64,000 nucleotides of DNA from Proteiniborus sp. MB09-C3 (GTDB lineage: Bacteria; Bacillota; Clostridia; Tissierellales; Proteiniboraceae), in contig NZ_CP127161.1 of the NCBI RefSeq assembly GCF_030263895.1, forward strand, positions 62,001 to 126,000, read 5' to 3'. Under the pieces are notes generated by a model, which saw only the letters and a list, made by a program, of their open reading frames with translations, did no database searches and was not told where the DNA came from. Position 1 is the stretch's first letter. Every line of letters starts with the position of its first letter. Below are positions 15,314 to 55,000 of this stretch, piece after piece. The translations under genes were made by a program, and so were the position numbers.

Positions 15314-15437
15314 TCCGCAGTCTCGAAGCACAGATTTATTTGTCATTCTGAGACGCAGTCGAAGAATCTTATGTTTTCAATGCATGAGAGCTCCTTCGCT
15401 GACGCTCTGGATGACAAAAAGGACTTTTTCAGTGGCC
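15314..15437. repeat. Long dispersed palindromic repeat overlapping the end of tdk
   Basis: Two arms, TGTCATTCTGAGACGCAGTC..GAAGAATCTT and GAGCTCCTTCGCTGACGCTC..GGATGACA, around ATGTTTTCAATGCAT. The right end is GGACTTTTTCAGTGGCC; the left end is degenerate. The window gap 15122-15428 contains only this element and the tdk terminator. Confidence 0.8.
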
Positions 15438-16326: not shown

Positions 16327-16493
16327 TGATTTCACCTCTCTTCAAACTCTGTTAACTGTATATTTAAAAGTAATCAGTTTTCAACTAGTATAGTATAGCA
16401 TAAATTTATAAGCATTTCAATAAAATAATACAGGCAAATCCTAGCTTGTCATCTTTAACGTTGGGGGGAGGATCTTCTATTTATTGAAAACAG

Positions 16494-16524
16494 GAGATTC
16501 TTCGACTTCTTCTCAGAATGACAA
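16494..16524. repeat. Dispersed palindromic repeat, short copy
   Basis: GAGATTCTTCGACTTCTTCT then CAGAATGACA, directly after the rho stop codon region and before rpmE. Confidence 0.6.
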
Positions 16525-16526
16525 AA

Positions 16527-33496: not shown

Positions 33497-33500
33497 GAGG

Positions 33501-33620
33501 TTGCTGAAAAAGTCCGTTTTTTGTTTGTCATTCTGAGACGCAGTCGAAGATATATGTTTTCAATGCAAGAGAGATCCTTCTCTTACGCTCAGGATGACAT
33601 AAATAGACTTTTTCAGCGGT
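33501..33620. repeat. Full-length dispersed palindromic repeat (about 120 bp)
   Basis: Ends TTGCTGAAAAAGTC and GACTTTTTCAGCGG are inverted repeats; inside are the TGTCATTCTGAGACGCAGTC and GAGATCCTTCTCTTACGCTC arms. CATTCTGTCC occurs directly on both sides (33487-33496 and 33623-33632), possibly a target duplication. Confidence 0.85.
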
Positions 33621-33643
33621 ATCATTCTGTCCCATATCTTTCT

Positions 33644-36220
33644 TTAAGGTAACAATTCATCAGTATAAAATCCGTCTACTCCATTTGCCTCCAACTCTTT
33701 TCTTAACTCAGGCTCATTTATAGTATGAGCATATACAAAGACATTTTCTGATTTAAGTTTTACTGGCAGCTCTGTTCTTGCCCTTTCTATGGGCATAGTA
33801 ACAGCAAAAATCTCATGTCTCCTTACAAAATCTATCAGCTCATCATCTGGATACTCAGATGAATATAAGGTCAATATAATATTTGTATAGCCCATCCCCT
33901 GTACAGGAATGAATTCGTCCATCTTATATATCTGTGGAATAAATTTAGCTATCAAGTCAGGATATCTTTCTTTAATAAGCTTCAAAGCCTTTATATTGTC
34001 ACTTTTTATGTCTGTAACTATATATACATCTCTATGCTCATAGAGCCACTCTGCCAAGTCCTCCAAGGACATTTGTGTAAGACCATTTATCATATTAAAG
34101 CTCTTGAATTCTTCAGTGCTATATGCCTTTGACTCTTCAGAGAATAGCTCATTCACCTTCTCCTTCCACTCATGAATAAGCACCAGGTTTTCATCAGTAG
34201 TCCATTCAAAATCCAGCTCTATGAATTTATATCCATTCTCAACGCTTTTATCAATTGCCTCTCTTGAATTAGTATAATATAGTCCCTCTATTTTCCCACC
34301 TGCATGAGAAATCAACGTTTCTGGCACAATACGCTTATTAGCAGCTTCTCCGTCTTTAGACATTTCTTCTCTATCCGTAAAGTATTTACTTAGCAAATCA
34401 TTTTTCAGAATATAATTTGACTTGTTTATTTCCCTAATGGCTCTTTCATAATCCTCTCTGCACTTTTCTAAATCCACAGGCTGTCTGGTATTTATATTCC
34501 AAGCTCTGCTATTATTGTATATTCCATCCCTAGACATAGAAAATACCATATCATCTTTTATATATGAGCCCTTTAGCATATAGGTTTGTTGGGCAACAAA
34601 GCCTTCTTTAGCATTTACTAAATCCTGTCCAAGCATTATACCCTTTTTGTTTTCAATTCCCAGTAGATTCAGTACTGTAGGTAAAAAATCTATTTGCCCG
34701 CCTGTGGTACTTATCCTCTGATTAATTCCTGATTTAGGCATATGGATTATGAAGGGTATATTCATCATTTCGTCAAAATCATACTCATAACCTAGATATT
34801 CTGTCATTTGTTTTTTATTTTCTTCGTCTATTGAAGATAATCCAAAATGATCCCCATATATATTGATTATTGTGTTTTCATATAATCCTTCTTCTTTCAA
34901 TTGTTGAATAAATTCACCTAAAGCAGTATCTGCATGGTTAATAGATTGAATATAGTTTCCAAACAAAGTGCTTTCATGTTCTTCTTTTAGCTTGATTTTC
35001 TTAAATTCATCAGGCATTTCAAAGGGATGATGACTTGATAAGGTAACTAAAAAGGCATAGTAAGGCTCCTTCATAGATTTAATATAATCCATTGACTGCA
35101 TAAAGAACTCACTATCATTTATTCCTAAACCAATTGTAGCTCCCACACTATTATAGTCGTTATCAGCATTGTAGTACCTGTCAAATCCCTGATAAGGGTA
35201 TGCCTTATCTCTGTTCCAAAAGTCCCCTTTATATCCATGGAAAGCTGCTGTACTATAGCCACTATCCTTTAATATCCAAGGCAGTCCATAGTATGTGTTG
35301 TTATAATACCATAGATAGGTCTGCCCATCCATTGCAGGATATAATGAATTATGAGACACAAACTCTGCATCAGATGTATTGCCTCTGCCTAGCTGCTGAT
35401 AATATTGGTCAAAATATATACTATCTTCCTTTATTAGCTTGTTTAAATTAGGTGTTATTTCCTGACCTTCGTATTCTCTATCTATGACAAAGTTTTGAAG
35501 TCCTTCTACTTGAATAGTTATTACATTTTTGTTCTTAGCTATTCCATACAGATTTTTTTCCTTATTACTTACTTTTTCTATTGATTCCTTCAACAATTCA
35601 TCTATATCTTCACCCTCATATTTTGAAAAAAAGGTATTGTATATATCACCTATATGATAAGTAAAAAATTCTTGATGAAACAAGTTAATGTTGTCACTAA
35701 AAGCATTCACAGAAACAACAGACAAAATTACTATAGCCAATGCGCCTAATGCAATGCCAAAGGATTGTTTTTTTCCTAAGGTATTTATCCTACTAGATAA
35801 TATGATTTTGCGACTATAGATATAGTAAATAATCAAAGGTATGATATCAGCAACTAATAGAAAATTGACTGGCTCTAGCACATAAGATATACTTTCTCCT
35901 ACTGAACTAAGCTGATTAACTTGCTTCAATACAACTATAGAAGTAAGTTGATTAAAATGCTTAAAATATGCTGAATCTATGAACATTATTAAAGCTATTA
36001 ATGAATATAGAGTTAGGAGAACTACATCACGTCTTTTCCCTTTGAACATGTTAATTAATGCAATGATAAAAACTATATACATTGAACTTATTATGCTTAG
36101 CCTTAGACTTACATTTCCATTGCCAATTAAGATATTATAGATTAATGCCTTAATTAGGAAAAGAACTAGCAATGCTATATTTTCAAGTTTTTGTACTCTG
36201 TGTTTTTTTGTTATATTCAT
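33644..36220 (-). CDS. LtaS-type membrane sulfatase fused to a glycerophosphodiester phosphodiesterase domain
   Basis: 858 residues. Five or so membrane segments (about 1-185), then an extracellular sulfatase/LtaS domain (about 225-590): EGLQNF supplies a metal Glu, GRGNTSDAEF the nucleophile Thr, and NIYGDHFG metal Asp/His. LtaS polymerises glycerol phosphate from phosphatidylglycerol. Fused to it is a GDPD domain (about 640-858): SHAGG, TNSREAI, IELDFEW and LIHEW. The last position, normally HD, is HE. The ATG at 36220 is preceded by GAGGATGG; the frame could start at 36262. The GDPD could trim or hydrolyse the polymer or deacylated lipid head groups. Fusion of synthase and hydrolase is unusual; roles are inferred. 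Confidence 0.85.
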   Translation of the reverse strand: MNITKKHRVQKLENIALLVLFLIKALIYNILIGNGNVSLRLSIISSMYIVFIIALINMFKGKRRDVVLLTLYSLIALIMFIDSAYFKHFNQLTSIVVLKQVNQLSSVGESISYVLEPVNFLLVADIIPLIIYYIYSRKIILSSRINTLGKKQSFGIALGALAIVILSVVSVNAFSDNINLFHQEFFTYHIGDIYNTFFSKYEGEDIDELLKESIEKVSNKEKNLYGIAKNKNVITIQVEGLQNFVIDREYEGQEITPNLNKLIKEDSIYFDQYYQQLGRGNTSDAEFVSHNSLYPAMDGQTYLWYYNNTYYGLPWILKDSGYSTAAFHGYKGDFWNRDKAYPYQGFDRYYNADNDYNSVGATIGLGINDSEFFMQSMDYIKSMKEPYYAFLVTLSSHHPFEMPDEFKKIKLKEEHESTLFGNYIQSINHADTALGEFIQQLKEEGLYENTIINIYGDHFGLSSIDEENKKQMTEYLGYEYDFDEMMNIPFIIHMPKSGINQRISTTGGQIDFLPTVLNLLGIENKKGIMLGQDLVNAKEGFVAQQTYMLKGSYIKDDMVFSMSRDGIYNNSRAWNINTRQPVDLEKCREDYERAIREINKSNYILKNDLLSKYFTDREEMSKDGEAANKRIVPETLISHAGGKIEGLYYTNSREAIDKSVENGYKFIELDFEWTTDENLVLIHEWKEKVNELFSEESKAYSTEEFKSFNMINGLTQMSLEDLAEWLYEHRDVYIVTDIKSDNIKALKLIKERYPDLIAKFIPQIYKMDEFIPVQGMGYTNIILTLYSSEYPDDELIDFVRRHEIFAVTMPIERARTELPVKLKSENVFVYAHTINEPELRKELEANGVDGFYTDELLP

Positions 36221-36305
36221 AGCAACCATCCTCATAAAGTAAAAAATTTTATTTACATTCAAATTAGATTATATAATACTGATGTCTCAATGGCAACTTT
36301 CCAAT

Positions 36306-36349
36306 ATAAAAAACCTAAGGCTTGGGAGTTTCCTCCTTGCCCTAGGCTC
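36306..36349 (-). terminator. Terminator after the 630-residue SLH protein gene
   Basis: CCTAGGGCAAGGAG pairs imperfectly with CTCCCAAGCCTTAGG, followed by TTTTTTATATTGG on the minus strand. Confidence 0.7.
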
Positions 36350-36365
36350 TTTTAATTACTAGCTC

Positions 36366-38258
36366 TTATTTTTCGTATGGAATAATTATACTCTTTGCTT
36401 CTATGAAGGAGTCATTGTAGTCGCCTATGATGATTACCTCGTCTCCAACCTCTAGCTTGCTTTCACGTACTGTATTCCCATACAAATCTATGAATGTAGT
36501 ATATCCTGAATATACTATTGTCTTTTCAGCATATGTGCCATCCTCATCATCTACTGTTACAGTGATGAGACTGTGTTTTGTTGTTATACTGCTTATATTT
36601 CCTATGATAATTTGATTCTTTTGTCTAGTGAGAGCATAAAGTGAAACTATTTCGTCACCCTCTACTGTGAAATCAACATAATACCCTACTTTTAAATCAT
36701 AAAGCTCTGCTCTTTCCTTATCTAGTCTTACGGTTGCTCCTAATCCAAGATAATAGGTCTCTTTTTCTCCTTTACTATTTAGTATAGTAATCTCAGGTTT
36801 TTTAGCCTGAAGTATAGAAACTATAGAGCCTTCTCCTTCTTTTTTAACTATCTTAGCTTCTATATCAGTGATTACTCCATCTTCTACTTCTATAGTTACA
36901 TCATCACCTTTTCTAAGGTCTGTAACCTTACCTCTGCTTTTATTTCTATATATAGACACGTTCTTGTCTAAGGGATATTCAAATGTTTCCTTATCTTTAT
37001 CTTGAATGACTAGTAAATAATCACTTGAAGATAATTTTATTTCTTTAATAGTTCCTGTAAGCTTTAAGTATTTACTTTTAGCCTTTATTACAGTTATCTT
37101 GCTATTTCTTACTTTAATTTCAATAGAATCTCCATCTTTAATATCCCTGAAAAATGCTTCCTCTCCATTTAAAGTGATATCTACATTAGGATCAAGATAG
37201 AAGGCTTTTCTTTCAGTTGTTTTTGATTTGTCATCTTTAGTATATTCTATTGTAAGCATTTGAGGACTAGTTTGGATAGTAGACCTTACCTTTCCCTCAT
37301 ATTCCTCATTTATTCCCTCTGCGCTAAAGGATATGACTTTATTATCCTCTGTAATCTCTGCTTCAAACTTTAGCCCTTCAATAAGCTCGCTATAATCTAT
37401 TTTACTTCCATCAAGCTTTACAATGGTCTTTTCATTGACTATATATGTAGTTTTAGTTCCTATTTTGTTTTCGATTGTGACATATAATTCATTAGGTGCT
37501 CTCAATATGCTAGATATAGTGCCCATTATGGTTTGAGTCTTAACTACAACTTCTTCATTATTTAAAGGTCTGTTTAATAAAAGGTTTGAAACCATATAAT
37601 CGTATCCTATGGATAGCATTTTTGCCATGGCATCCCTCGTAATAGGAGAAGTCGGATTGAACTTTCCTTGTGCATCTCCATCTGGGTTGATTATGCCTTT
37701 ATTTACCATCATATACACATATCTTTGATCTTCTGCTCCTATAAAGTCTACGTCTTTGAATGAAAGCTTAACTACAAGAGGTTTTTTTGCTTCTTCTTCA
37801 AGGGCCATAGCCTTAGTTAGCCAACGAGCTATCTCTACTCTTTGAGCAACTGCTTCTTTATTATTTAGGTAAAAACCTTTTGCTTCAGTTTCAGTTATTA
37901 CTCCTGCTGCCAATGCTACTGCTATGCCGTCTTGAGCCCATGTTGGTATGTTTTGCTGAGTTAAAAAGGCTTGATGTGTTTGTCTAGCCTGTGCTGTTTT
38001 AGTTGCATCCATTCCCATCATTCTCGCCATCATAATAGCTGCTTGTACCTTTGTAACATTCCCACTAGGGTTAAAATTTCCCGCTCCATCACCAGTAATT
38101 ATACCCGCTTTACTTACCTTATCTATGTAATCTTTTGCCCAATGGTTGCTAGGGACGTCCTTGAAATTTTGTGCAAATGCTACCGTGTTTGTAAAGATGA
38201 ATAATAAAGCTAATACAAGTGAAAGTTTTTTTAGATGCTTTTCTGTTCTTCTGTACAT
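36366..38258 (-). CDS. Secreted SLH-domain protein with beta modules
   Basis: 630 residues: signal peptide (about 1-29, ends VAFAQN), three SLH units (about 30-215; FNPSGNVTKVQAAIMMARMM and FNPTSPITRDAMAKMLSI), then at least four modules of the kind G.I..I......L.I....K.....Y.LD..V....., e.g. GTIKEIKLSSSDYLLVI and GSIVSILQAKKPEITIL. The modules resemble those of the SLH protein at 31256. GGAGGG precedes the ATG. No enzyme motif is visible; a structural or adhesive surface role is likely. Confidence 0.83.
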   Translation of the reverse strand: MYRRTEKHLKKLSLVLALLFIFTNTVAFAQNFKDVPSNHWAKDYIDKVSKAGIITGDGAGNFNPSGNVTKVQAAIMMARMMGMDATKTAQARQTHQAFLTQQNIPTWAQDGIAVALAAGVITETEAKGFYLNNKEAVAQRVEIARWLTKAMALEEEAKKPLVVKLSFKDVDFIGAEDQRYVYMMVNKGIINPDGDAQGKFNPTSPITRDAMAKMLSIGYDYMVSNLLLNRPLNNEEVVVKTQTIMGTISSILRAPNELYVTIENKIGTKTTYIVNEKTIVKLDGSKIDYSELIEGLKFEAEITEDNKVISFSAEGINEEYEGKVRSTIQTSPQMLTIEYTKDDKSKTTERKAFYLDPNVDITLNGEEAFFRDIKDGDSIEIKVRNSKITVIKAKSKYLKLTGTIKEIKLSSSDYLLVIQDKDKETFEYPLDKNVSIYRNKSRGKVTDLRKGDDVTIEVEDGVITDIEAKIVKKEGEGSIVSILQAKKPEITILNSKGEKETYYLGLGATVRLDKERAELYDLKVGYYVDFTVEGDEIVSLYALTRQKNQIIIGNISSITTKHSLITVTVDDEDGTYAEKTIVYSGYTTFIDLYGNTVRESKLEVGDEVIIIGDYNDSFIEAKSIIIPYEK

Positions 38259-38362
38259 TGATACTTCGCCCTCCCTCTTAAATTTAATAGATAATATATT
38301 CTTTAAATAATGCTTAAATCCTTCTATTTTCGATAAAATATATCGTTTTTAGGACATATTGA

Positions 38363-38399
38363 CTAACTATTAGACAGCTAATCAATATGTAAGACGATA
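38363..38399. repeat. Inverted repeat between SLH and GDPD-SLH genes
   Basis: ACATATTGA and TCAATATGT flank about 18 bases with a further short pairing. It lies after the GDPD-SLH gene and may act in termination, but no T-run follows. Confidence 0.45.
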
Positions 38400-38431
38400 T
38401 TTACAGATATTTGTTCCATATTTGGCTGCTT

Positions 38432-39853
38432 CTAATTTAATCTGAACTTTTCAAAGGTTCCTTTTACCAATATAATTCCTTCTTCTCTAGTAACATTACT
38501 TTTTGGTGATACTCTATTGTCTCCTACACCACTTAGAATGCCATAGTTATTCATAAAGCCTACGGCTTCTAATGCCCAATTAGAAATATCGCCTTTATCC
38601 GCAAAGCTAACATCGCAATTGCCCTCTATCAAGGATTCATCTACTGTTCTCAATGTTCTATAAAGCATAGCAGCTATTTCTTCTCTTGTAACTTTCGTAT
38701 TTGGTGAAAACTGTGTTTCGTCAACTCCATTTACGATGCCTAAAGCATTTGCCTTTAATATTTCTAGATTGCTTGTATCCATAAATCTATTTGTAACGGG
38801 TGCAATTGCTTCTTCTCCAGACATTGCTTCATATAACCTTACTATCAATTCACAAAGCTCTTCTCTTGTTATATCCTGTTGAAGATTTTCAATAATATTA
38901 TCTGTAACTAGATTATATTCTCTTGCCTTCTCAATTTGAGCTATGCCCCAGCTTGAAGGAAGTATATCATCAGTATAAAATCCATCAACTCCATATAGCT
39001 CTAGCTCTTGTCTTATCCCATGATTATTGATTGTATGAGCATATACAAACACATTTTCTATTTTTAGCTTACTTGGCAGTTCAGTCCTTGCCCTACTTAT
39101 TGGCATAGTGACAGCAAAGATCTGATGGTCTTTCACAAAATCTAACAGTTCATCATCTGAATAATTAGACATATATAAAGTCAGTATAACATTTGTATAA
39201 CCTAACTCTTGTACAGGAATAAACTCGTCTATTTTATATATCTGTGGTATAAATTGAGCTGTTAAATCAGGATATCTGTCTCTTATAAGCTTCAATGCTT
39301 CAATGTTACAAGTCTTTATGTCAGTAACTATATATACATCTTCATGACCATAAAGCCAATCTGCTAAATCATCTAAGATCATCTGATTAAGGCCTTCTAT
39401 CATACTAAAGCTCTTAAATTCCTCTGAACTATACATTTTAGACTCCACACCAAAAGCACTATTTACATATCCTCCCCAATCATGGATAAGAGCTAGGTTT
39501 CCATCAATAGTCCATTCAAAATCCAGTTCTATAAACCTATACCCATTTTCATAGCTTCTATCTATGGATTCTATAGAGTTAGTATAGGATTTTCCTTTTA
39601 CTCTCCCTCCAGCATGTGAAACCAAGTTTTCAGGAATAAGCTTCGTAATAGCAGGATTTATTTCATTTAATGTTTCTTTTTCATCTGTTATATGGAATTC
39701 TACATTTACATAGATATCATCATACCCATTTTCCATATTAGAATCAGAAGCATTTACCACAATGACTGATGTTGCAGCTAACAACAATGAACCTACCATA
39801 GCACTGATAATCTTTCTTTTCTCTAAACTAAAGCCTTTTCTAATTGCATCCAT
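38432..39853 (-). CDS. Surface glycerophosphodiesterase-like protein with SLH repeats
   Basis: 473 residues. Signal peptide (about 12-36); GDPD-like domain (about 75-300) with SHAGGRVKGKSYTNS, IELDFEW and LIHDWGG, here with the usual His-Asp; then SLH repeats (about 310-470) ending TREEGIILVKGTFEKF. The GDPD part is strongly similar to the C-terminus of the LtaS fusion encoded two genes upstream: IYKIDEFIPVQELGYTNVIL aligns with IYKMDEFIPVQGMGYTNIIL. The SLH part would hold the phosphodiesterase on the wall. Substrates may be teichoic-acid glycerophosphate; this is inference. Confidence 0.83.
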   Translation of the reverse strand: MDAIRKGFSLEKRKIISAMVGSLLLAATSVIVVNASDSNMENGYDDIYVNVEFHITDEKETLNEINPAITKLIPENLVSHAGGRVKGKSYTNSIESIDRSYENGYRFIELDFEWTIDGNLALIHDWGGYVNSAFGVESKMYSSEEFKSFSMIEGLNQMILDDLADWLYGHEDVYIVTDIKTCNIEALKLIRDRYPDLTAQFIPQIYKIDEFIPVQELGYTNVILTLYMSNYSDDELLDFVKDHQIFAVTMPISRARTELPSKLKIENVFVYAHTINNHGIRQELELYGVDGFYTDDILPSSWGIAQIEKAREYNLVTDNIIENLQQDITREELCELIVRLYEAMSGEEAIAPVTNRFMDTSNLEILKANALGIVNGVDETQFSPNTKVTREEIAAMLYRTLRTVDESLIEGNCDVSFADKGDISNWALEAVGFMNNYGILSGVGDNRVSPKSNVTREEGIILVKGTFEKFRLN

Positions 39854-39878
39854 GAGTCCATCTCCGTATATTGATTAT

Positions 39879-40961
39879 TTATTTTGGAACAACCTTATTT
39901 AATAATGGTATCCTTTGCAAAATCACAACTGCAAGATAGGATACTATAAATGTGATGCTGCCTACTAGTGGTATCCCTATTATAGGATTAAAGGATGAAG
40001 CATCTATGATGATGCCAATATCTCCAGAAGAAATAATGTCCAGTACCAGTAAATGTACTAGATATATTCCAAAGCTTGCCCTATTAAAGCTTGAAATCAG
40101 CTTATTTATAATAGGACTTTCCCCAATAATTTTATCCCAGTTTATATTTTTAAACAATAGATATACCATTATAGACATGAATATAATATTAGGAGCTAAA
40201 TATGAATACAGATGTGGAACAAGGACTCCGTCATTATTTTTAGTCAATACATATGTTCCATATACAGTCACAATCATTCCTAAAAGTCCAAGAGCATAAG
40301 CAGCTTTCCTTTGCTTCCTTGAAAAACTATATTTTTCGATGAAAAAACCTAACACATAGTAACCTAGACTCCAATGGAAAAAGCTTAAATTAAAGCCTAT
40401 ATTATACTCTGTAAATTTTTCAAGAAATGCAATTATTCCATTAGATATAAACCAGACTACTATAAAATATATCAAGCTCTCTTTTCTTGCATTATTTACA
40501 TATGGCTTGATAATAGGTGTAATCAAGTATAGTCCTACTAGCATATAAAGATACCACAAATGAATGTGTACATTACCTGTATAGATGTTTTTTAAAAATG
40601 ATATAATTAACGACACATCCCACTGAATAACTACTTCATTTTTTCTTATCATATACAATAAGCTCCAAAATACCAGAGGGATAATCACCTTTATAAGCCT
40701 TTTTCTTAAAAATAGAAGTACACTTTCTTCTCTATCATTGTATAGCATAAGTCTACCACTAATAAGTATTAGTACAGGTACACTCCATCTGGTAATAGAA
40801 TCTGCTAGATTACCTACCCACCACCATTTAATACCATAGGTATTCGTACTTGCTGCAAATGGGGCTGAGACATGTAATACTACAACTGCAAATATTGAAA
40901 GGATTCTCAATATATCTATATATATAATTCTAGAGGTTTTTTCAGTTCTAATGTGAATCAC
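39879..40961 (-). CDS. Acyltransferase-3 family membrane protein
   Basis: 360 residues, about ten membrane helices. The catalytic-region motif IYIDILRILSIFAVVVLH has the His typical of acyltransferase 3 (OafA/YrhL, O-acetylase) proteins. Such proteins acetylate surface polysaccharides or wall polymers. It lies next to LtaS/GDPD genes, so wall-polymer modification is likely. The start is uncertain: the GTG at 40961 overlaps AAGGAG, whereas an ATT nine bases later would have normal spacing; the family N-terminus is short, so either fits. Confidence 0.82.
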   Translation of the reverse strand: MIHIRTEKTSRIIYIDILRILSIFAVVVLHVSAPFAASTNTYGIKWWWVGNLADSITRWSVPVLILISGRLMLYNDREESVLLFLRKRLIKVIIPLVFWSLLYMIRKNEVVIQWDVSLIISFLKNIYTGNVHIHLWYLYMLVGLYLITPIIKPYVNNARKESLIYFIVVWFISNGIIAFLEKFTEYNIGFNLSFFHWSLGYYVLGFFIEKYSFSRKQRKAAYALGLLGMIVTVYGTYVLTKNNDGVLVPHLYSYLAPNIIFMSIMVYLLFKNINWDKIIGESPIINKLISSFNRASFGIYLVHLLVLDIISSGDIGIIIDASSFNPIIGIPLVGSITFIVSYLAVVILQRIPLLNKVVPK

Positions 40962-40988: not shown

Positions 40989-41112
40989 GCCACTGAGAAA
41001 CCTTAATTTTCTTGCTTGTCATTCTGAAACGTAGTTGAAGATGTATGTTTTCAATACATGAGAGATCCTTCGCTAACGCTCAGGATGACAAAAGAGAACT
41101 TTTTCAGTGGCC
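40989..41112. repeat. Full-length dispersed palindromic repeat (about 124 bp)
   Basis: Ends GCCACTGAGAAA and TTTTTCAGTGGCC, with TGTCATTCTGAAACGTAGTT and GAGATCCTTCGCTAACGCTC arms around ATGTTTTCAATACAT. It lies in the leader between a promoter (41174-41203) and the acyltransferase gene. Confidence 0.85.
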
Positions 41113-42902: not shown

Positions 42903-44069
42903 TTAAAGCGCTCCGCCTATTGCATTTTTTCCTAAGCCTATGCTATATTTAAAATCTAATAATGCTAGATTATATGCATGTACTTGCTTTGAAAGGTTTT
43001 TCTTAGCATCCATAAGGTCTATCCTAGCCTTAGTTACATCATTTGAAGTATTTTGACCTAAATTATAGCTTAATTCGGTTAGCTCATATGCTTTTTGGGC
43101 ATTTTCCACTGCTTTTTCATAGGTCTTTATCTGCTTTTCAGCTGTGATTAGACTATGATAAGCAGACCTTACTGACATTTCAACTCCATTTTTAACTGTA
43201 TCAAGACTCTTAGCTGCCTGTTCTACTGCTATTTCTTGTTCTCTGTACTTATATTGGTTTGGAGTAGAGTATTTAGCTTTAACCGCTTTAAAAGTAAGTT
43301 CAGAAAGCTCATATCCTTCTTTAGCAGCCTTTAGTATTGCACTATTTTCATTAGCAGTTTCTATAGCTTCATCTAGTTTAATTTCATCATGCTTTTTATA
43401 CTCTATTTTATCTGTTAATTTTATCTTTTGGACTAAAGATAGTCCTAAGGTATTATTAAAGCTCATCTTTTGCAGCTCGTATCCCATTGTAGCCATATCA
43501 AAGCCTGATTGAGCCTGTGATACTGCAAGCTCTACTGATAAAAGCTGTTGATGAGAAATAGTACCTAGCTCATACATCTTTTTGCTCTGTTCATACTGTC
43601 TGTTTGCCAGCTCTAAACCTTCCTTAGCTATTTCCATATCTTTTTCACTCTGTAACAAATCAAAGTAGGCTTTTTCTACATTATATTTTATTTCATTTTC
43701 TTTTATTTCTTTGTTCCAAATAGATATTTGCTTTGAAAGCTTAGTTTGTCTGTCTAATATACCCAAATCAAAATATTCTTTAGGTAGTATTTCTGAATTA
43801 ATAAAATCTTGTTCTTCTCCTGATGCTCCATTGTAATCCCTCAATATCTTTCTATCTTGATCGTACTTAAGCTCTGCTCTCTTCATTTCTAAATCTTGTA
43901 TTTTCATATCCTTACTATTTTTTAAAGCATATTCTGTAGCTTGTTTAAGATTCAGTTCTATTTCTTTATTTGGATCGAATTCTTTAACAGCATCATCCTC
44001 TGCATATGTAATAATACTCATTGAAAAAAGCATAACAGCAACTAAAGCAAGTGACAAAAGTCTTTTCAT
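42903..44069 (-). CDS. TolC-family outer-membrane-efflux-like secreted protein
   Basis: 388 residues. Signal peptide (about 1-23, ends TYAED); the rest is alpha-helical and coiled-coil with the repeated pattern of TolC/OEP proteins: LNLKQATEYALKNSKDMKIQ near residue 40 and NLGQNTSNDVTKARIDLMDAKKNL-like helix near 340. Gram-positive members exist and have no outer membrane to span, so they may form a wall-spanning or scaffold structure. It has its own promoter (44124-44153) and terminator. No RND or MFP exporter gene is adjacent. Confidence 0.8.
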   Translation of the reverse strand: MKRLLSLALVAVMLFSMSIITYAEDDAVKEFDPNKEIELNLKQATEYALKNSKDMKIQDLEMKRAELKYDQDRKILRDYNGASGEEQDFINSEILPKEYFDLGILDRQTKLSKQISIWNKEIKENEIKYNVEKAYFDLLQSEKDMEIAKEGLELANRQYEQSKKMYELGTISHQQLLSVELAVSQAQSGFDMATMGYELQKMSFNNTLGLSLVQKIKLTDKIEYKKHDEIKLDEAIETANENSAILKAAKEGYELSELTFKAVKAKYSTPNQYKYREQEIAVEQAAKSLDTVKNGVEMSVRSAYHSLITAEKQIKTYEKAVENAQKAYELTELSYNLGQNTSNDVTKARIDLMDAKKNLSKQVHAYNLALLDFKYSIGLGKNAIGGAL

Positions 44070-53246: not shown

Positions 53247-53282
53247 TGTTATCACTCCTCGTGTTTTAAGGCTTTTAAAAGA

Positions 53283-53311
53283 GAGATCCTTTGCTGACGC
53301 TCAGGATGACA
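53283..53311. repeat. Dispersed palindromic repeat, short copy
   Basis: GAGATCCTTTGCTGACGCTC then AGGATGACA, in the gap between the SLH gene and the 559-residue protein gene. Confidence 0.65.
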
Positions 53312-53320
53312 ACTAATATA

Positions 53321-55000
53321 CTATTTTACTATGACAACCTTACCTTTATAGTCGTCTCTAATTACATAGACATTGTCTCCAGGTTTTAAGTCTTGGTAGG
53401 TTATGAGTTTATCCTGTTTTATTATTATTGCTTTATTTAAACTGACCTTCAATGACATTTCTTTTGGTATCCACTTTTCATGTCTTGCACTCCAGTCCTT
53501 AGCTTCTCTTATTATCATTTCTTTTCCTAGTATGTTACTATCTGAAGCAGACTCTACTATACCTATGGTCATTCTCTGCTTAAGTAGGGAATCCATTTCC
53601 TTCTGTACCCCTATTACACTTATATGGTCTCCATCTGTATATATATATCCATGCCAATCTCTAAGTCTATTATCTTTTGCATGCCTGCTTTTTTCATCTA
53701 CTGCATAATCCTTTGTATAAAATTCCTTTGAAGTTATTAGCTTGTCCTTTTCTAAATCATATATAAATGTATCGTTATCGTAATAAAGCTCTTTTATATC
53801 TTCAAAGCCTTCCCACTGATGCTTTACTACAAGAAAGGGATTTTTAAGCTTTACTGTGTTTTCTACTATTTCATCTAACCTTGCAACATATACATTGTTT
53901 TGTCCGATATTGGAATTGTTTATATCCTCATTATATATGTATATGACGTCTGCTGTAAGTCCTCCACCTTTGCCATTTGCTATAAAAAATCCATCTGATT
54001 TTGGGTTTAGTGAATACTTATCTACTAGCCTGTCGCTTTTTACTATTATAGTACCATCATTAAATTCTATGTTTTTATTGTTACCTAGTTCTAGGTTTTC
54101 TGAAAACCAGTTTATATCTTTTATTTTTTCTGAATATGTGGTTTCATAGGCTCCTTTTACTACTAGCCTTTCTATTTTTTCTTGTCCAAAGAAATTTTTT
54201 ATGGCTGCATATACTTCTTTTCCTTTGTAGTATTTAAGATTATTGCTGGGAACTACATATCCTTCTATATATATGGGGGAGTCCGATGAGTAGCTTATCC
54301 TAAGTCCTCCCTTTGTATCTTCCCATTTACCTTCTACTAGAGTCTTCACATTTTCTAGAAATATGGTGTTTTCTAGTTCATCTACTGCTGCTAGTTTCCC
54401 TTTGTACAAGTTTTGTATCTTTATAGAATCTCCTTCTATAGATATTCTACTGACTATATCTGTATTTATATCGTCAAAATGCAGTTTTACTCTATCTCCT
54501 ACATAAAGAACGCTTAAAGGTACATTTTCACCTTTTTTTATTGCTATAGTAGCTGGTGAAAAGTAGTAGGTTTCATCATTTCCTATTGATGTTTTAATGA
54601 TTATCTGATTTCTGTCTATAGTCTTTATTGTACCTGTTCTCATTTTGCTGCCTGGCTTTATATATCCTGGATTAAGGGTAGAGAAGCTATCCATGTACTG
54701 GATGCTTCTACCTCTTATCTCTGCATATACTTCCATGCCTGGTTTAAAATCTATTCTCTGAGCTTGATGCCCATCTATTAGTAGATTTGCTGTATTAGGT
54801 AATTGTATTTTATACGTTCCGCCTTCATATCTCTCTATAGTTACTGTCTCTGAATTTATTTCTTTTATATAGCCTTCTATATATCCAGTTCTAAGGGGCT
54901 GAGCATTATTCTCTGCTCCATAGGCTACAGCAGTAAATACAAGGGTTAGAATAAGCAAAAACATAATTATCTTTTTATTCAATATACTTTTTTTCAACAC
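53321..55000 (-). CDS. Secreted beta-module protein of unknown function
   Basis: 559 residues. Signal peptide (about 10-30, ends AYGAEN). The rest is a string of small beta-barrel modules such as YIEGYIKEINSETVTIERYE and MRTGTIKTIDRNQIIIKTSI, like the modules of the SLH proteins at 31256 and 36366, but there is no SLH or other wall anchor. It could be held by partner proteins. Translation starts at a GTG (55000) two bases after the giant IPT protein ends, so translation is coupled. No enzyme motif is seen. Confidence 0.75.
   Translation of the reverse strand: MLKKSILNKKIIMFLLILTLVFTAVAYGAENNAQPLRTGYIEGYIKEINSETVTIERYEGGTYKIQLPNTANLLIDGHQAQRIDFKPGMEVYAEIRGRSIQYMDSFSTLNPGYIKPGSKMRTGTIKTIDRNQIIIKTSIGNDETYYFSPATIAIKKGENVPLSVLYVGDRVKLHFDDINTDIVSRISIEGDSIKIQNLYKGKLAAVDELENTIFLENVKTLVEGKWEDTKGGLRISYSSDSPIYIEGYVVPSNNLKYYKGKEVYAAIKNFFGQEKIERLVVKGAYETTYSEKIKDINWFSENLELGNNKNIEFNDGTIIVKSDRLVDKYSLNPKSDGFFIANGKGGGLTADVIYIYNEDINNSNIGQNNVYVARLDEIVENTVKLKNPFLVVKHQWEGFEDIKELYYDNDTFIYDLEKDKLITSKEFYTKDYAVDEKSRHAKDNRLRDWHGYIYTDGDHISVIGVQKEMDSLLKQRMTIGIVESASDSNILGKEMIIREAKDWSARHEKWIPKEMSLKVSLNKAIIIKQDKLITYQDLKPGDNVYVIRDDYKGKVVIVK

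Follow-up and report, generated by a model that had tools for sequence, protein, structure and literature searches.

A predicted lipoteichoic acid synthase fused to a candidate lipoteichoic acid diesterase domain in Proteiniborus sp. MB09-C3

The window analyzed here, a 64,000-nucleotide stretch of the Proteiniborus sp. MB09-C3 genome (contig NZ_CP127161.1, positions 62,001 to 126,000), encodes on its reverse strand a protein combining a region of lipoteichoic acid (LTA) synthase (LtaS) homology with a C-terminal glycerophosphodiesterase (GDPD) domain (Table 1). The open reading frame was uninterrupted over its mechanical extent (33644-36262) and would yield 872 residues from a TTG at 36262; the ATG at 36220, with a GAGG Shine-Dalgarno-like sequence approximately 9 nt upstream, is better placed than the TTG. 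Pfam searches assigned Sulfatase (PF00884; residues 245-536, 4e-39) and GDPD (PF03009; residues 662-869, 3e-11; 44.5 bits, cut-off 23.6) to the protein. The single reading frame, the two Pfam domains and the LtaS homology bore out a sequence-only reading of the locus, which had described an LtaS-type synthase joined to a GDPD. Full-length orthologues with the same layout were present in two other genomes of the genus (77% and 70% identity) and elsewhere in the order (43-54% identity). Because such fusions recur in many genomes, an assembly error at the join, one of the two refutations foreseen in that reading, was ruled out.

Table 1. Features of the LtaS-GDPD locus, in window coordinates. Residues are numbered in the 872-residue frame; subtract 14 for numbering from the ATG.
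Feature	Position	Strand	Remarks
LtaS-GDPD fusion coding sequence	33644..36220	-	858 aa from ATG at 36220
N-terminal membrane part, then linker	35600..36220	-	five predicted long helices, approximately residues 24-190 (AlphaFold2 secondary structure)
Extracytoplasmic LtaS catalytic (sulfatase-fold) domain	34655..35530	-	residues 245-536
Codon of T296	35375..35377	-	predicted nucleophile (GRGNTSD motif)
C-terminal HAGG-type GDPD domain	33647..34321	-	residues 648-872
Codon of H653	34304..34306	-	first catalytic His (H-A-G-G versus canonical H-R-G-A)
Codons of E682-L-D684	34211..34219	-	predicted metal ligands
Codon of H697	34172..34174	-	second catalytic His, then E698
Codons of D751-I-K753	34004..34012	-	D-x-K versus canonical E-x-K
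SLH-domain surface protein	36366..38258	-	located between the GDPD genes; order conserved in G002
SLH-GDPD, secreted, with S-layer homology repeats	38432..39853	-	catalytic set intact
Acyltransferase-3 membrane protein	39879..40961	-	upstream neighbor of SLH-GDPD; order kept in G002

The first 630 residues of the fusion protein aligned with the solved structure of eLtaS (2w5q; 1e-67). Residues E253, T296, H342, W349, R351, H411, D471 and H472 aligned with the active site of S. aureus LtaS, such that the nucleophile Thr, the metal-binding Glu, Asp and His, and the substrate-binding Trp, Arg and His were all present. In the AlphaFold2 model (mean pLDDT of 84), the LtaS domain was predicted confidently, and five long helices preceding residue 190 corresponded to a predicted N-terminal transmembrane part. 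LtaS is known for the same five-helix membrane layout. A Foldseek search placed the model beside LtaP/LtaS (4uop; 1e-31, TM-score on the target of approximately 0.85). The score against the NCBIfam LtaS equivalog (338.8 bits) did not reach the cut-off of 970, although nearly the whole model was covered, and by these comparisons the protein is LtaS-like and lies outside this curated, narrow equivalog. It is the sole close LtaS of the genome, the next two matches being distant (75 and 18 bits).

The GDPD domain was modeled with pLDDT values mostly of at least 90 and displayed the strand-helix alternation of a TIM barrel, and the solved structures matching it were generic GDPD matches only. Alignment with canonical GDPDs of the order revealed that H653, H697, Glu682, Asp684 and Lys753 were retained, whereas Asp751 replaced Glu, Ala654 replaced the phosphate-binding Arg, and the DRTT motif was absent. 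The sequence-only reading had called for a structural comparison of both active sites and had regarded missing GDPD metal ligands as damaging; both domains were predicted confidently with their catalytic residues present, and the ligands occupied canonical GDPD positions. Relatives of the domain shared the signature HAGG...YTNS...E-x-D-F...H-x-W...TD-I/V-K, with H653, E682, D684, H697, D751 and K753 invariant across its active members and Ala, Gly or Ser in place of the Arg of the H-R motif in all catalytically intact ones. From this alignment, the fused domain is assigned to a distinct "HAGG" subfamily of GDPDs with its catalytic residues in place. PF03009 domains numbered only three in the genome. 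The same earlier reading had correctly noted a Glu (E698) after the second His; its suggestion that activity might differ for this reason was not upheld, since the position is variable, relatives having D, S, G, N or E there and two outliers K or P, and this residue was set aside as a functional change. The replacements of HR by HA and of E-x-K by D-x-K are the more telling ones and escaped that reading, as did the second GDPD copy of the locus and the prevalence of degenerate GDPDs in the order; the missing Arg, a phosphate contact in canonical GDPDs, counts against hydrolysis by the domain. Within the genus, the dN/dS ratio was approximately 0.1 for both the LtaS and the intact GDPD domains, with dS near saturation; both domains of the fusion are under purifying selection.

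GDPD-derived enzymes can be synthetases, as exemplified by AvrBs2, whose catalytic set H/E/D/H/D likewise ends in Asp (PMC12807533). The loss of the Arg and the presence of D-x-K in HAGG domains would also fit a synthetase or transferase of this kind, which would add or move a phosphodiester-linked group on the polymer. A weak match of the AvrBs2 model to the second GDPD protein of the locus (24 bits) points the same way; however, this similarity is generic and far under the cut-off of 1000 bits, and we regard a synthetase as very improbable. Membership in the AvrBs2 family itself was ruled out on this score, which was obtained with that copy only.

The second GDPD protein (SLH-GDPD) also carries a HAGG-subfamily domain, which shares 68% identity with the fused one. 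In the GDPD tree, it fell within the LtaS-GDPD clade of the genus (support 100/99), and it therefore appears to be derived from the fused domain. The gene order acyltransferase-3, SLH-GDPD, SLH protein and LtaS-GDPD was conserved in one of the other genomes of the genus (G002), and the fusion alone of this block was present in another (G001). The GDPD domain of the G001 LtaS (L082) clustered with the SLH-GDPD copies (99/96), apart from its counterparts on the other LtaS proteins of the genus, a placement suggestive of gene conversion or an exchange between paralogues. Two features of the surrounding DNA were also recorded. A repeat of approximately 120 bp, whose inverted ends (AAAAAGTC...GACTTTTT) are MITE-like, had 42 matches in the genome including the query; copies in the window lay at 33499-33625, ~41008-41110, ~15335-15435, ~16469-16525 and ~53279-53326, and the first two of these, in the same orientation, exactly flanked the block from the acyltransferase to the fusion (33644-40961). 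A TolC-type outer-membrane efflux domain (PF02321, 4e-35) was encoded at 42903-44069 and is conserved in the two further species of the genus, in an apparently Gram-positive, S-layer-bearing genome.

Beyond the order, HAGG domains were fused to an LtaS/GacH-like transferase in a Myxococcota bin (L044) and to an MdoB-like transferase in a Falkowibacteria bin (L045), each of these two fusions coming from one metagenome bin, and to an LtaP-like domain in a Spirochaetota bin (L053). Standalone HAGG genes adjoined genes for AP-superfamily transferase-like proteins in Omnitrophota (L039 and L041) and at clostridial loci (L043, L048, L050, L052, L064 and L074). Across 14 standalone loci, a transferase-like gene occupied 6 of 28 flanking slots, compared with none of the 173 other genes (p = 4e-6, a value that overstates independence and is effectively weaker because several of the counted loci are related). 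No transferase was found near the standalone HAGG genes of L038, L040, L047, L049 and L055-L058. For 30 canonical GDPDs of the order, no transferase-type neighbor was present within approximately 1.5 kb. In the GDPD tree, the label fused or alone required seven changes, at least three of which were forced by well-supported branches. The HAGG subfamily is thus repeatedly linked to genes of the phosphoglycerol-transferase type (LtaS/GacH/MdoB) across several phyla. Another domain partner was observed at L065 (115-2211), where a C-terminal HAGG GDPD follows an N-terminal part of approximately 460 residues with no match to the LtaS model.

This linkage bears on what the domain would act upon. GDPD-family enzymes act on lyso-phosphatidylglycerol (8ghi, among the fold matches) and on wall teichoic acid (GlpQ and WhyD), and the locus is surrounded by genes for SLH proteins and includes the SLH-anchored GDPD copy. 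These observations are compatible with activity on a different component of the envelope, be it lyso-phosphatidylglycerol, a deacylated lipid, wall teichoic acid or an S-layer-binding wall polymer, in phosphate or glycerol salvage, the fusion only positioning the enzyme at the membrane. We consider such a role improbable, as the recurrent partner is specifically of the phosphoglycerol-transferase type even in Omnitrophota and Myxococcota, which are expected to have neither LTA nor wall teichoic acids nor S-layer wall polymers.

The distribution of the fusion was surveyed in 100 relatives and in class and phylum samples. The HAGG subfamily was sparse, occurring in 20 of 390 other genomes of the class sample and 6 of 397 of the phylum sample, and LtaS-GDPD fusions were nearly restricted to the order of the window. 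For the other clostridia, in which the sequence-only reading had proposed to look for the fusion, orthologues were found across the order and in each of the two species sampled from the genus. Three states were distinguished. Both LtaS and GDPD were catalytically intact in ten genomes, including that of the window. An intact LtaS was fused to a degenerate GDPD in 24 domains from 22 genomes (21 of the order and G271), the damage extending from point substitutions (L086) to deletion of the segment bearing the second His, and such degenerate GDPDs constituted the majority of LtaS-GDPD proteins in the order. Finally, in L106 and L107, the GDPD was intact and the LtaS had lost its motif and had no membrane part. 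These two proteins, from Peptoniphilaceae-like genomes (G075 and G095), carry a secreted LtaS-like domain that has lost the catalytic residues and thus mirror the degenerate fusions.

No intact HAGG domain was found anywhere in the genome for 16 of the genomes with a degenerate GDPD, several of which are draft assemblies. The degenerate GDPDs remained under constraint, with dN/dS ratios of approximately 0.08-0.36, compared with approximately 0.05-0.13 for the LtaS domains of these pairs; these figures are rough because dS is near saturation. A model of a degenerate domain retained a GDPD-like fold, although the alignment used included active relatives and is biased accordingly, making the fold match weak evidence. 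Since 22 genomes carry degenerate domains and 16 of these lack an active copy, many relatives can dispense with hydrolysis, and there must be a non-catalytic role as well. An additional binding role is taken here as the main rival, favored by the many degenerate relatives: the C-terminal domain would serve chiefly to bind the polymer or substrate, gauging or tethering the chain as it grows, with catalysis ancestral and incidental. The persistence of degenerate domains on intact LtaS proteins, their dN/dS ratios and fold, the genomes with the degenerate form only and the mirror case of L106 and L107 all fit this reading. We nonetheless consider it rather unlikely for the window protein, as the full catalytic set, needless for a binder, is invariant and strongly constrained in the window, the genus and several other families. 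In a quick LtaS tree with several long branches, proteins with an active, a degenerate and no GDPD domain were intermixed, and the best reading of this topology suggests an ancestral fusion followed by repeated decay and loss; such repeated loss from an active ancestor speaks against a mainly binding role.

Further LtaS variants were seen in the survey. At several loci, an LtaS with a degenerate GDPD was encoded in tandem with a second, plain LtaS (L097, L098, L103, L105 and L109), and at L092/L093 the second LtaS also carried a degenerate GDPD. By analogy with Listeria LtaP/LtaS, these tandem operons possibly encode primase/synthase pairs. A 917-residue LtaS (L108, 10762-13512) had approximately 315 extra C-terminal residues that matched neither GDPD nor any Pfam family.

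LtaS takes sn-glycerol-1-phosphate (Gro1P) from phosphatidylglycerol and releases diacylglycerol; no glycerophosphodiester is set free. The earlier reading had entertained a use of lipid head groups generated by the synthase; this was therefore discarded, and the GDPD substrate is likely to be the polymer or the primed glycolipid. GlpQ-type GDPDs are strictly sn-3-specific and cannot hydrolyze LTA because LTA is built of Gro1P (PMC7086022), and the membrane-anchored WhyD of S. pneumoniae offers a precedent for a GDPD-type teichoic-acid hydrolase (PMC9208761). On these grounds, HAGG domains are proposed to hydrolyze the products of phosphoglycerol transferases. The window protein would be a membrane-anchored LTA synthase whose extracytoplasmic domain polymerizes Gro1P from phosphatidylglycerol and which bears a metal-dependent phosphodiesterase of the HAGG GDPD type on that same side of the membrane. 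This domain would most likely cleave glycerophosphodiester bonds in the polymer, or in the primed glycolipid, delivered by the linked transferase, and chains would be trimmed, proof-read or recycled where they are made; the SLH-anchored copy would act likewise farther out in the wall. The control of polymer length may be one of several outcomes of such trimming. We assign this reading of the window protein, which builds on the fusion itself, the intact catalytic residues and purifying selection in both domains and the recurrent linkage, a probability of roughly 50%, and we infer the hydrolysis, the substrate and the Gro1P stereochemistry of the HAGG domain. A broader proposal, possible but more doubtful, is that HAGG domains are sn-glycerol-1-phosphate diesterases in general, the enantiomeric counterpart of GlpQ for products of LtaS/MdoB-type transferases across phyla (LTA and glycans decorated with phosphoglycerol), sometimes fused to the transferase and repeatedly turned into non-catalytic binders.

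LTA turnover is poorly understood. We found no LtaS-GDPD fusion in the open-licence literature and no LTA-specific diesterase in a limited open-access search. The HAGG subfamily, fused or adjacent to Gro1P transferases, represents a concrete and directly assayable candidate for an LTA diesterase, and its recurrent pairing across distant bacteria suggests a hitherto unreported partner for trimming or recycling LTA. The series of dead GDPDs on live LtaS and of live GDPDs on dead LtaS additionally provides natural variants with which binding could be separated from catalysis.

Among known systems, LtaS and LtaP (S. aureus LtaS, 2w5q; L. monocytogenes LtaP, 4uop; B. subtilis YflE, 2w8d) share with the window protein the five-helix membrane part and an extracytoplasmic sulfatase-fold domain with a Glu/Thr/Asp/His metal site at approximately 30% identity; they have no GDPD, whereas the window protein adds a C-terminal GDPD domain of approximately 225 residues. 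GacH and MdoB (OpgB) belong to the same AP-superfamily branch, of which the GacH/LtaS-like (L044) and MdoB-like (L045) partners of HAGG are representatives, and we know of no previously described GacH or MdoB member with a GDPD domain. GDPDs of the GlpQ/UgpQ type (PF03009) share the fold and, at equivalent positions, the His pair, the Glu/Asp metal ligands and the Lys, but have H-R-G-A, E-x-K and the DRTT motif where the HAGG domain has H-A-G-G, D-x-K and no DRTT; teichoicases of the GlpQ type are characterized by exolytic release of sn-glycerol-3-phosphate. AvrBs2 resembles HAGG in its GDPD-derived domain with a catalytic set ending in Asp; the similarity is marginal, and AvrBs2 itself is a type III effector synthesizing a sugar phosphodiester (PMC12807533). 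WhyD, like the HAGG domain of the fusion, is a membrane-anchored extracytoplasmic domain of the GlpQ/GDPD type and acts on teichoic acid, but it has no fused synthase and cuts wall teichoic acid rather than LTA (PMC9208761).
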